Of a stretch of DNA of 34,765 bases, positions 31,333 to 34,765 are shown piece by piece. Each line of letters starts with the position of its first letter. Position 1 is the first letter of the stretch. The notes under the pieces are model-generated. The model did not search any database and was not told the origin of the DNA. It was given only the letters and a program-made list of their open reading frames with translations. The position numbers and the translations under genes were made by a program. Source of the stretch: Ruminococcus sp. (GTDB lineage Bacteria; Bacillota; Clostridia; Oscillospirales; Ruminococcaceae); contig JAAYBK010000091.1 of assembly GCA_012718885.1 (NCBI GenBank), positions 1 to 34,765 of the forward strand, read 5' to 3'.

Positions 31333-31803
31333 ATGAAAAAAATCAAATGGACAGATCTTATAATATTCATCGTCACCGCAGAGCTTGTGGGAACGCTGTC
31401 AGCGCTACTCTCCGGACAGTACAGGGACATTTTCAGCGAGCTGAACAAGCCTCCGCTGTCGCCTCCGGCAATATTATTTCCTATAGTATGGGCAATTCTC
31501 TACGCACTCATGGGAATAGGAGCATATCTTGTATACGTCTCTGAGGACAGCGGCGTCAGGACATTCTCGCTGCGTGTTTATATATTGCAGCTTGCAGTCA
31601 ATTTCTCCTGGAGCATAATCTTCTTCCGTTTTGAGCTTCTCGGACTTGCGGCAGTTGTTGCTGTTATCCTTGCGGTTCTGGTAGCAGTCATGGTTCGGGC
31701 ATTTTACCTTACACGGCCGCTGGCAGCATATATCAACCTGCCATATCTTGCATGGAGCATTTTCGCTTCATACCTTGCAATTGGCAATGCAGTCCTGAAT
31801 TGA
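31333..31803 (+). CDS. TspO/MBR family protein
   Basis: Five TM segments; LNKPPLSPPAILFPIVWAILYALMGIGAYLVY, QLAVNFSWSIIFFRFELLGLA. Confidence 0.93.
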   Translation: MKKIKWTDLIIFIVTAELVGTLSALLSGQYRDIFSELNKPPLSPPAILFPIVWAILYALMGIGAYLVYVSEDSGVRTFSLRVYILQLAVNFSWSIIFFRFELLGLAAVVAVILAVLVAVMVRAFYLTRPLAAYINLPYLAWSIFASYLAIGNAVLN

Positions 31804-31832: not shown

Positions 31833-31861
31833 TTGATTTAACGAATATCCTCTGCTATAAT
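31833..31861 (+). promoter_or_regulatory. putative sigma-A type promoter for the 18-codon ORF
   Basis: TTGATT (31833-31838)-17 nt-TATAAT (31856-31861), TGC immediately before the -10. Confidence 0.65.
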
Positions 31862-31864
31862 AGA

Positions 31865-31884
31865 ATTATCCCAAGAGGGATAAT
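31865..31884. promoter_or_regulatory. perfect 8-bp dyad overlapping the predicted transcription start
   Basis: ATTATCCC-AAGA-GGGATAAT. Confidence 0.6.
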
Positions 31885-31904
31885 CCACACAGGAGGTAAA
31901 GACT

Positions 31905-31961
31905 ATGTGCTGCAATAACATATGGAAGCTTCTCTGCAAGCTCTTCGGCTTAGGCTGCTGA
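31905..31961 (+). CDS. candidate 18-aa cysteine-rich hydrophobic peptide (MCCNNIWKLLCKLFGLGC), missing from the ORF track
   Basis: ATG...TGA, AGGAGG at 31891-31896 with 8-nt spacing, own promoter upstream and own terminator 6 nt downstream. Confidence 0.6.
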   Translation: MCCNNIWKLLCKLFGLGC

Positions 31962-31967
31962 TATGAG

Positions 31968-31999
31968 AAACTCCCCCGGTGCTTACGGGGGAGTTTTTT
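31968..31999 (+). terminator. Rho-independent terminator after the 18-codon ORF
   Basis: AAACTCCCCCG-gtgctta-CGGGGGAGTTTTTT. Confidence 0.88.
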
Positions 32000-32003
32000 C
32001 TAT

Positions 32004-32561
32004 TCAATTCTCATTATACGGAATATCCTTAGCCTCTCTTATATCCTCAGGCTCAGGATGAACATCATTATCCTGTGATAAAGGACGCTTACTGCGTATC
32101 ACCCTTAACTCCAGGGGATGAAATTCAGGATAGCCGTGCTGAGCACTTACATATCGTTTCTTTTTCTCATGGAGATATGCAATATAACCATTAAAGGCAA
32201 ATAACGCCCATACAGGAATGATCGCAAAGGCTGCTTTTTCATTTATAAGCAACAGCAGCATAAGCGACGCAATAGCCGGACATATAAGACTTTTACGCCA
32301 TATCACAAGTATTACAGCTAAGATCAGGTATATGCCCGCTATTATAAAAATCTTGTTTACAAACATTTCTGTGATCTCGATAATCAGATATACGAAATTA
32401 CAAAAAAGGAAAAAAACGCGATATAACTGCATTTTCTTATTATATTCAAGACAAACAGTTCTGACAGTCTCATATTCATTTACAGCCTGCTTGAATTCCC
32501 AGGCCTTTTCCTCATCACATTCGATCACAAACTGATGATAAGCTTCTTCCGGAAGAGTCAT
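32004..32561 (-). CDS. hypothetical membrane protein
   Basis: 185 aa with several central hydrophobic segments (LFCNFVYLIIEITEMFV, IFIIAGIYLILAVILVIW, AFAIIPVWALFAFNGYIAYL) and a charged C-terminus; family not recognised. Confidence 0.75.
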   Translation of the reverse strand: MTLPEEAYHQFVIECDEEKAWEFKQAVNEYETVRTVCLEYNKKMQLYRVFFLFCNFVYLIIEITEMFVNKIFIIAGIYLILAVILVIWRKSLICPAIASLMLLLLINEKAAFAIIPVWALFAFNGYIAYLHEKKKRYVSAQHGYPEFHPLELRVIRSKRPLSQDNDVHPEPEDIREAKDIPYNEN

Positions 32562-32610: not shown

Positions 32611-33408
32611 TTATTTTTCGCAGCTGTGAATTACTTTGACCGGACATGCCTCCATGCACACGCCGCAGCCGGTACACTTCTCGTAATCGATAGCGGCATG
32701 GAAATTCTCGACCTTTATTGCCTCGTTAGGACACTTCTTCTCGCATATCTTACAGCCGATACAGCCGTTCTTACAGTTGAGCTTTGTCACCTTTCCGTTA
32801 TCCGCAGATGAACAGAGCACATCGATATGCTTAGCAAGAGGCTTTATCTCTATGAGCTGATTAGGACAGACTGCCGCACACTGTCCGCAGGCGCCGCAGA
32901 GTGCAGGAGTGACCTTTGCAACTCCGTTTTCAATGCGAATTGCCGAATGTTCGCAGACATTCATACAGTCTCCAAGTCCGATACAGCCATATTTGCACGT
33001 TCCGGTTCCGCCGTAGAATCTCTTGACGGCTTTGCAGGACTGAACTCCGTCAAAAACAAAAGCTGACTGAGTTGCGTTGCAGTCGCCGTTACAGTGAACA
33101 ACAGCGACCATAGGAACAACATCTGCTGCAGCAGTTCCGAGGATAGCTGCGATCTTTCCGGCAGCGTCTGCTCCTCCGGGACGGCAGAGGTTAGTGGGAG
33201 CACCCTTCTGTATTATTGCTGCCGCATAGTCGGCACAGCCTGCATATCCGCAGGCACCGCAGTTTGCCTGCGGGAGAGCCTCCCCTATTTTTTCTATACG
33301 CTCATCCACCTCAACGTGGAAGACCTTTGCGGCTACTGTCAGAAGAATACCGGCCATCATTCCGCAAAGTCCTACGATCAGCGCAGGTATAACATATGTC
33401 ATTATCAC
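32611..33408 (-). CDS. rnfB: Rnf electron transport complex subunit B
   Basis: ALPQANCGACGYAGCADYAAAI; ferredoxin-like clusters CGACGQCAAVCP, CIGCKICEKKCP, CTGCGVCMEACP. Confidence 0.95.
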   Translation of the reverse strand: MIMTYVIPALIVGLCGMMAGILLTVAAKVFHVEVDERIEKIGEALPQANCGACGYAGCADYAAAIIQKGAPTNLCRPGGADAAGKIAAILGTAAADVVPMVAVVHCNGDCNATQSAFVFDGVQSCKAVKRFYGGTGTCKYGCIGLGDCMNVCEHSAIRIENGVAKVTPALCGACGQCAAVCPNQLIEIKPLAKHIDVLCSSADNGKVTKLNCKNGCIGCKICEKKCPNEAIKVENFHAAIDYEKCTGCGVCMEACPVKVIHSCEK

Positions 33409-33417
33409 TGCACCTCC

Positions 33418-33996
33418 TTAATTGAACAGTCCCGAAAAGCCCATGAAGCTTACGGAAACTATAGAGGCTGCAATGAGAGTTGCAGGCACGCCCTTGAAAG
33501 TCTCTGGAATGTCAGCGTACTCCATTTTCTTTCTTACGCCGGAGAATATCACCAGTGAGAGCATAAATCCAAGTCCGCCGCCGAGAGCGTTGACTATGGA
33601 TTGAACAAAGCTGTAGCCATTGTCGATATTGAGAACAGTTACACCGAGAACGGCGCAGTTTGTAGTGATAAGGGGCAGGTACACACCAAGGGAGCTGTAT
33701 AGCGAGGGTATGCACTTTTTCAGCATAGTCTCAACGAGCTGTACAAACAGGGCGATGACCATGATGAATACAACCGTATCCAGATATTCCAGCTCATTCG
33801 GCACAAGTATACCGTGGTGTATGGGATATGTTACCAATGTGGCGCATATCATAACGAATGTTACCGCAAGTCCCATTCCTGTGGCACTGTCAAGCTTTTT
33901 TGAAACGCCGAGGAAGGGGCATATTCCCATGAATTTTGAAAGCACGAAGTTGTCTGTCAGCATTGCTGCCAGAAGTATTATCATCAGACTTTTCAC
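33418..33996 (-). CDS. rnfA: Rnf electron transport complex subunit A
   Basis: TDNFVLSKFMGICPFLGVSKKLDSATGMGLAVTFVM; LPLITTNCAVLGV. Confidence 0.95.
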   Translation of the reverse strand: MKSLMIILLAAMLTDNFVLSKFMGICPFLGVSKKLDSATGMGLAVTFVMICATLVTYPIHHGILVPNELEYLDTVVFIMVIALFVQLVETMLKKCIPSLYSSLGVYLPLITTNCAVLGVTVLNIDNGYSFVQSIVNALGGGLGFMLSLVIFSGVRKKMEYADIPETFKGVPATLIAASIVSVSFMGFSGLFN

Positions 33997-34667
33997 TGAC
34001 AGTCACCTGCCTTTCCGCAAGTCTCAGCATGGGGACATCCGCTGCACCCAAGTTCCTGAGGAGGCTTTTTGTTAGAGAGCTTGTTTACAGCTGCGATTAT
34101 CACGCCCAGGGTGAAAAATCCGCCGGCAGGCATGATGAAGAGCAGCATAGGATTGTCGTGGATGACTGGGATATCCATTCCCATCCACTGACCTGCTCCG
34201 ATGATCTCACGTATCGAACCCATGAGGAAGAGAGCAAGTGTAAATCCGATACCCATTCCTATGGCATCACAGGCTGAGGAGACTACTCCGTTCTTGCTTG
34301 CGAACATCTCAGCTCTTCCGAAGATAATACAGTTTACAGTTATGAGAGTGAGATAGATGCCAAGGCTGTCATAGAGGTCAGGCACGAAGCCCTCCAGCAG
34401 GAAGCCGATAAGGGTAACGAAGCTTGCTATGATAACTATGAATGAAGGGATACGCACCTTGTCCGGGATAACCTTTCTCAGTGCAGAAATAACTATATTT
34501 GAGCCCAGCAGTACGAATGTGGTCGCAAGACCCATACCGATACCGTTTTTAGCCTGAGTAGTAACTGCAAGGGTAGGACACATTCCCAGCAGCATTACCA
34601 GAGTGGGGTTCTCTTTGATTATGCCCTTTGTGATCTCGTGTCCGAGAGACATTTTCTTATCTGCCAC
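33993..34667 (-). CDS. rnfE: Rnf electron transport complex subunit E
   Basis: ENPTLVMLLGMCPTLAVTTQAKNGIGMGLATTFVLLGSN; LTLITVNCIIFGRAEMFA. Start placed at GTG 34667 (ORF track begins at 34715, inside rnfG). Confidence 0.93.
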   Translation of the reverse strand: MADKKMSLGHEITKGIIKENPTLVMLLGMCPTLAVTTQAKNGIGMGLATTFVLLGSNIVISALRKVIPDKVRIPSFIVIIASFVTLIGFLLEGFVPDLYDSLGIYLTLITVNCIIFGRAEMFASKNGVVSSACDAIGMGIGFTLALFLMGSIREIIGAGQWMGMDIPVIHDNPMLLFIMPAGGFFTLGVIIAAVNKLSNKKPPQELGCSGCPHAETCGKAGDCQ

Positions 34668-34765
34668 TGAGTATCGCCTCCTTGTTCTCGTTATATACAT
34701 CCATTGCAGCAGCAACGGCCTTTCTCATTCCCTTTGAGGAGAATGTAGCTCCGCTTATAGCGTCA
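34657..34765 (-). CDS. rnfG: Rnf electron transport complex subunit G, C-terminal fragment
   Basis: DAISGATFSSKGMRKAVAAAMDVYNENKEAILSGR*; DxxSGAT is the covalent-FMN motif of RnfG/NqrC. Continues beyond the window. Confidence 0.88.
   Translation of the reverse strand, partial: DAISGATFSSKGMRKAVAAAMDVYNENKEAILSGR

Follow-up and report, generated by a model that had tools for sequence, protein, structure and literature searches.

The question raised by this locus is whether an 18-codon ORF standing by itself in a Ruminococcus genome is a true gene and, if it is, what a peptide of that size could do. The ORF, MCCNNIWKLLCKLFGLGC, lies on the plus strand at 31905-31961 of the window (the whole 34,765-nt stretch of DNA that was analysed), its TGA stop codon at 31959-31961 included. 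The initial annotation of this DNA described a self-contained, expressed-looking monocistronic peptide gene, and the signals it listed are all present where it placed them. The promoter occupies 31833-31861 (plus strand), with a -35 element TTGATT at 31833-31838, a 17-nt spacer and a -10 element TATAAT at 31856-31861 that is accompanied by an extended -10 TG. The Shine-Dalgarno sequence AGGAGG (31891-31896, plus strand) is 8 nt before the ATG at 31905, and an intrinsic terminator (AAACTCCCCC..GGGGGAGTTT; 31968-31999, plus strand) follows 6 nt after the stop codon, with a hairpin at 31968-31996 and a T tail that runs to 31999. This terminator stands just before the end of the next gene, which is indeed on the opposite strand (32004-32561, minus) and convergent. 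One feature was absent from the earlier description: an inverted repeat, ATTATCCC-AAGA-GGGATAAT, at 31865-31884 (plus strand), which would form a 5'-terminal hairpin at the predicted mRNA start, the transcription start being placed by prediction only at about 31868. The predicted mRNA of the window was more structured than shuffled sequences (z = -3.3), an Rfam search of the window gave no match at gathering score, and the copy number in the window's own genome is one.

The same arrangement was found in many related genomes. With a 184-base query, homologues of the element turned up in most genomes of the genus, and the loci that were read show the same layout of promoter, repeat, Shine-Dalgarno sequence, short Met-Cys ORF and terminator. 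When a 150-position sequence profile of the whole element was applied to a genus sample of 100 genomes, 67 carried the element at E <= 1e-8 and the next best match was at 1.4e-5 (hand count). Of these positive genomes 65 had been read beforehand, and the two added by the profile (G132 and G047) were read afterwards. Genus matches to the profile at E 1e-5 to 0.01 were taken as background unless read, and so were matches with E above 0.003 in a separate homologue search. The promoter sits inside a conserved TTTTGCATTGATTTAAC..TGCTATAAT box whose ATTGA and TATAAT columns are invariant across homologues, and the Shine-Dalgarno sequence is kept as well. The host genus is Ruminococcus, R. flavefaciens group. 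A pattern scan of named genomes gave 41 stretches, including the R. flavefaciens strains ATCC 19208, YAD2003, SAb67, ND2009, MA2007 and YL228, and pattern scanning also placed the element in rumen MAGs. About a third of the genus is without a recognisable copy, and therefore the element is not essential everywhere.

A longer branch of the peptide, MCNFNFxCxSxWxLLCxLFGxGC, occurs with the same layout in other Clostridia families. Its promoter is ACATTTGnAAAA..GTTACAAT and its start repeats take forms such as TTGTC-CTCGCGA-GACAA. Within the family of the host genus two further genera have this branch, and in a second family (f14) it was found at E <= 0.005 in 10 of 121 genomes, all ten of which were read; two copies in that second family (L107 and L173) have no clear 5' repeat. 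One further peptide, MCNFDFASVLEILRQLCGFGC (L166), falls inside the class and outside the order by its kinship label. The G047 locus encodes two tandem 23-residue peptides, MCNLKCFGDLFRMLCSLCGNCCK and MCNFAGICDIFKMLCGLCGNCCK, which look intermediate between the two branches. The genus profile found no further members in a sample of 399 drawn from across the phylum, and plasmid and phage searches gave no copy. A match on a viral contig (L165) was rejected as chance, for it has no ribosome site and its frame stops after three codons. Judged from sequence, then, the ORF is one member of a family, previously without a name, of tiny helical peptides with four cysteines. The earlier picture of a self-contained gene holds, and the gene is no lone case: 75 or more different peptides, spread over several Clostridia families, make up the family.

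Several loci carry more than one copy of the ORF. Two or three tandem ORFs under one promoter and one terminator were seen in L020, L022, L027, L031, L073, L074, L076, L083 and L204; the tandem copies are identical in L020 and L022 and different in L027, L072 and L076. Such tandem ORFs on one transcript suggest a dosage effect, or a mixture of peptides where the copies differ. L016 (at 1582 and 1792) and L067 carry head-to-tail copies of the whole unit from promoter to terminator, and the peptides encoded are identical, which points to gene conversion or to a duplication of recent date. Just past the peptide gene, L026, L030 and L018 have interspersed repeats, with AAACCCTTTT.. and long inverted repeats among them.

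The ORF is almost certainly a real, translated and conserved peptide gene. Among pairs with at least 50% amino acid identity, mismatches by codon position were 768/354/1923, with pN 0.12 and pS 0.59. Because that identity filter favours a low pN, the count was repeated without any amino acid filter on pairs at nucleotide identity 0.75-1 (75-99%), where mismatches by codon position were 370/184/1457 and 1115 synonymous codon changes stood against 605 nonsynonymous ones, the pairs being non-independent. These counts indicate that the peptide is under purifying selection, and despite the non-independence of the pairs the direction is unambiguous. The synonymous bias that the initial annotation had proposed to look for is thus found, and the ORF survives the search for frameshifts and stops in homologues that was to have spoken against it. 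In a genus alignment of 58 peptides, which excludes one aberrant peptide (L025), Met1, Cys2 and Cys11 are invariant. Recurrence of the element with this protein-coding conservation is far beyond chance.

The 5' hairpin is conserved in a different way. The stems of relatives differ and yet pair: TCCC/GGGA, TTGTTCC/GGAACAA, TTGTC/GACAA, CGTC/GACG and, in L204, TGTTC/GAACA. Since the stem sequence varies while pairing is kept, it is a hairpin that is conserved and not a fixed sequence. G-U pairs occur in some stems (TTGTC/GGCAA in L129, for example), and loops range from 3 to 24 nt. RNAalifold run on a plain MAFFT alignment of the leaders found no consensus pairs, because MAFFT misplaces the 3' arm and so breaks the arms; the case for the hairpin consequently rests on per-sequence pairing and on an arm-swap permutation test. 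A stem of at least four Watson-Crick pairs is present in 72 of 83 leaders compared with about 44% of shuffles, which is a modest control. A leader's own 5' and 3' arms gave -6.47 kcal/mol against -4.99 kcal/mol for swapped arms (0 of 5000 permutations, with relatedness uncontrolled). In L030, L031, L049, L050, L077 and L157 the loop has grown to about 19-24 nt with the stem kept, and in L031, L049, L050 and L157 the stem has changed to TTGTTCC/GGAACAA. Insertions of this size in the loop are easier to reconcile with an RNA hairpin than with a DNA operator, but in the branch with TCGCGA, where the palindromes are short, an operator function of the inverted repeat is also conceivable. The loop is this self-complementary TCGCGA in six longer-branch copies (L104, L112, L129, L141, L162 and L171), and the longer-branch promoters often carry repeated GTTACAA; either could be a regulator site, or the loop a kissing loop. 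At the other end of the transcript, 72 of 94 copies have a terminator-like structure within 75 nt past the stop codon, compared with 5.9% of shuffles, and the terminator hairpins are unrelated in sequence among copies. Many of the copies without such a structure are upstream members of tandem pairs.

The peptides themselves were compared as a set of 75 distinct sequences of 16-26 residues. Conserved across them are the Met-Cys start and an amphipathic "NIWKLLCKLFGxGC" helix, whose core of 10-11 residues is polar or charged on one face and has a mean hydropathy of 0.36. The hydrophobic moment has its maximum at 100 degrees, the period of an alpha helix, with a value of 0.57 compared with 0.29 for shuffled sequences, in agreement with the amphipathic character first proposed. 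Cysteine makes up about 25% of the residues after Met and at least four cysteines are present in 71 of 75 peptides, so that the conservation of cysteine that the initial annotation had asked about is borne out. In two peptides (L112 and L114) the central cysteine is replaced by serine and a new cysteine appears three residues on, on the same side of the helix (LSQLCGFGC); having a thiol on that face would thus seem more important than where exactly it sits. The L166 peptide has three cysteines only, and a peptide of G132 has arginine for the central cysteine and yet six cysteines in total; therefore only the N-terminal cysteine is close to absolute. As the residue after Met is Cys, and the specificity of methionine aminopeptidase is established, the Met is probably removed. 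Searches of Pfam-A, NCBIfam and PHROGs gave no match at a cut-off of E <= 1 save a chance Pfam hit (E 0.22), and PDB sequences gave no match either; the family-library queries were relatives of 20-26 aa, as peptides below 20 aa fell under the submission length. A literature search on such peptides, partial in its coverage, returned nothing relevant, and small-protein catalogues could list the sequences unnamed.

The genes around the element differ between lineages. Upstream in the window, outside the transcript unit, is a tspO gene of the TspO/MBR family (31333-31803, plus strand; PF03073, E 1.3e-38). No other neighbour is as common in the genus: tspO directly precedes the peptide gene in 48 of the 65 genus copies that were read. 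About 30 nt separate the tspO stop from the promoter of the peptide gene, and tspO diverges to 50-60% identity over the genus with the order kept. In copies that lack tspO its place directly upstream can be taken by a metallophosphoesterase gene, and other families have unrelated neighbours. On these grounds the association with tspO is read as inherited gene order and not as a functional pairing. Downstream, rnfB is often found in the genus in convergent orientation. In the window, convergent rnfB/rnfA-type genes (Rnf ferredoxin complex) lie at 32611-34715, beyond the small membrane protein gene at 32004-32561; in several relatives genes of this type directly follow the peptide gene.

Taken together, these features suggest a model that we hold tentatively, rating it as a whole a little short of an even chance: the gene would produce a stable monocistronic mRNA for an amphipathic metal or redox micro-protein at the membrane surface. 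A strong promoter of its own would give an mRNA of about 130 nt with a hairpin at each end. Structures at the 5' end stabilise bacterial mRNA, as reviewed in PMC3997798, where work on the B. subtilis aprE leader is among that cited for such stabilisation. The short 5'-terminal stem-loop of the peptide mRNA should likewise protect it against 5'-end-dependent decay, the terminator would close the 3' end, and the consensus ribosome-binding site would allow steady translation of a peptide of 16-26 residues. Probable removal of Met would expose the N-terminal cysteine, and the peptide may fold into a short amphipathic helix that rests against a partner protein or the inner membrane surface. The cysteines, at least four of them (at the N-terminus, in the helix and in a C-terminal G-x-[GC]-C), might jointly bind a soft metal, with zinc, iron-sulfur or copper type sites as candidates, or serve in thiol redox chemistry, the site probably being formed in an oligomer. 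Since there is no co-transcribed gene and the neighbours differ between families, the peptide is read as acting in trans. We infer the stability of the mRNA, the membrane location and the metal or redox role from sequence features. The membrane or metal/redox peptide named among the roles in the initial annotation may hold, though as inference only. A counterpoint is that four cysteines in so short a helix could form disulfides that are structural or that link molecules. The further proposal that these peptides are in themselves complete metal, iron-sulfur or redox proteins, docked at the membrane, leaderless, made without a maturase and expressed from a hairpin-stabilised mRNA, we regard as unlikely, although not fanciful.

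Other explanations of the locus were weighed against this model. That the product is a regulatory small RNA, with the ORF incidental or secondary, would agree with the short transcript, with the conservation of the 5' hairpin and terminator and with the strong folding of the window RNA (z -3.3). However, such an RNA would not account for the third-position and synonymous bias in a strict frame, nor for a Met-Cys start, helix and cysteine pattern that are conserved over deep divergence, and it is the peptide that is conserved between branches whereas the loop and terminator sequences are not. The codon data have thus largely refuted this explanation already, which we consider very improbable; a pure small RNA role is rejected by the synonymous bias. 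Still harder to credit is an attenuator leader peptide that senses cysteine, even though the ORF is short and Cys-rich and its terminator begins 6 nt past the stop. The initial annotation had argued against such a leader, and the convergent gene downstream in the window supports it; in addition, the genes downstream differ between genomes and are convergent or unrelated, tandem ORFs share a single terminator, and residues besides cysteine are conserved.

A type I toxin-like peptide, one that would damage the membrane of its own cell, with an antisense RNA or the 5' hairpin keeping it silent, is improbable, although less so than the two explanations above. The peptide is very short and hydrophobic, the mRNA looks stable and there are tandem duplications; Fst and Ldr share the small size and the short, structured mRNAs (PMC7472228). 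However, antisense promoter-like sites occurred in 30 of 99 copies compared with 31% in shuffles and had no shared position, by a scan for consensus only, and the downstream side is occupied by a convergent protein gene. The Shine-Dalgarno sequence is of consensus type and lies outside the hairpin, all copies are chromosomal with none in the plasmid or phage searches, a membrane-spanning segment would need more than the roughly 11 hydrophobic residues present, and the four conserved cysteines are foreign to those toxins. The secreted or toxic role put forward in the initial annotation is accordingly unsupported, with no mobile location, antisense antitoxin promoter or signal sequence found. 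Small amphipathic helices of such size are often subunits. The peptide might act in trans on a single partner protein, such as a redox or membrane enzyme, as its cofactor or regulatory subunit, and the cysteines of the peptide would then be structural or bind the cofactor of the partner. The frequent position of the gene beside tspO, rnfB or both within the genus would fit. Yet conservation of the neighbourhood stops at the genus, and even there the peptide gene persists where tspO is absent, with the metallophosphoesterase gene directly upstream; therefore no partner is indicated. We regard this explanation as doubtful, but more credible than a toxin.

The family is real, conserved and unnamed in the libraries searched. 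It demonstrates that conservation across families of abundant rumen and gut bacteria is possible even for a gene too short for normal gene calling (16-26 codons), and that such a micro-gene can keep its own promoter, 5' hairpin and terminator while being absent from the protein libraries searched. These peptides exemplify a class that has been overlooked in Ruminococcus and its relatives. If they do prove to be complete metal or redox proteins, few directly encoded proteins of that kind now known would be as small. A four-cysteine amphipathic helix of this length is small enough for synthesis, so its role can be tested at once in Ruminococcus and relatives.

Comparison with known systems places the peptide between several of them. 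SpoVM of B. subtilis, at 26 aa, is a short amphipathic micro-protein. Micro-proteins like SpoVM have in common with the peptide a stand-alone tiny gene, an amphipathic helix and the lack of a signal sequence; they differ in that the peptide has at least four cysteines, a count that is retained, and neither a recognised sequence relation nor a link to sporulation was seen. Type I toxins (Fst/Ldr, Ibs) resemble it in length (16-35 aa), hydrophobicity, short structured mRNA and tandem copies. In contrast to them, the peptide gene is without a conserved antisense promoter or a membrane-spanning stretch and has conserved cysteines and a consensus Shine-Dalgarno sequence. SCIFF and other Cys-rich precursor peptides of Clostridia are likewise small and contain cysteine, whereas the peptide is about half as long, with no leader and no NCBIfam match; among neighbouring genes read by eye none resembled a radical SAM maturase, and the peptides are too short for the usual leader. 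Stabilising 5' stem-loops of the B. subtilis aprE leader type resemble the peptide mRNA in having a hairpin at the extreme 5' end and strong ribosome binding. In contrast to them, the 5' hairpin of the peptide mRNA comes with an entire micro-gene that is conserved, its stem varies in sequence with compensation, and its stabilising effect is putative. With metallothioneins and other small Cys-rich metal binders the peptide shares a high cysteine content, but it is a hydrophobic amphipathic helix rather than a polar chain, and it has four or five cysteines rather than many.
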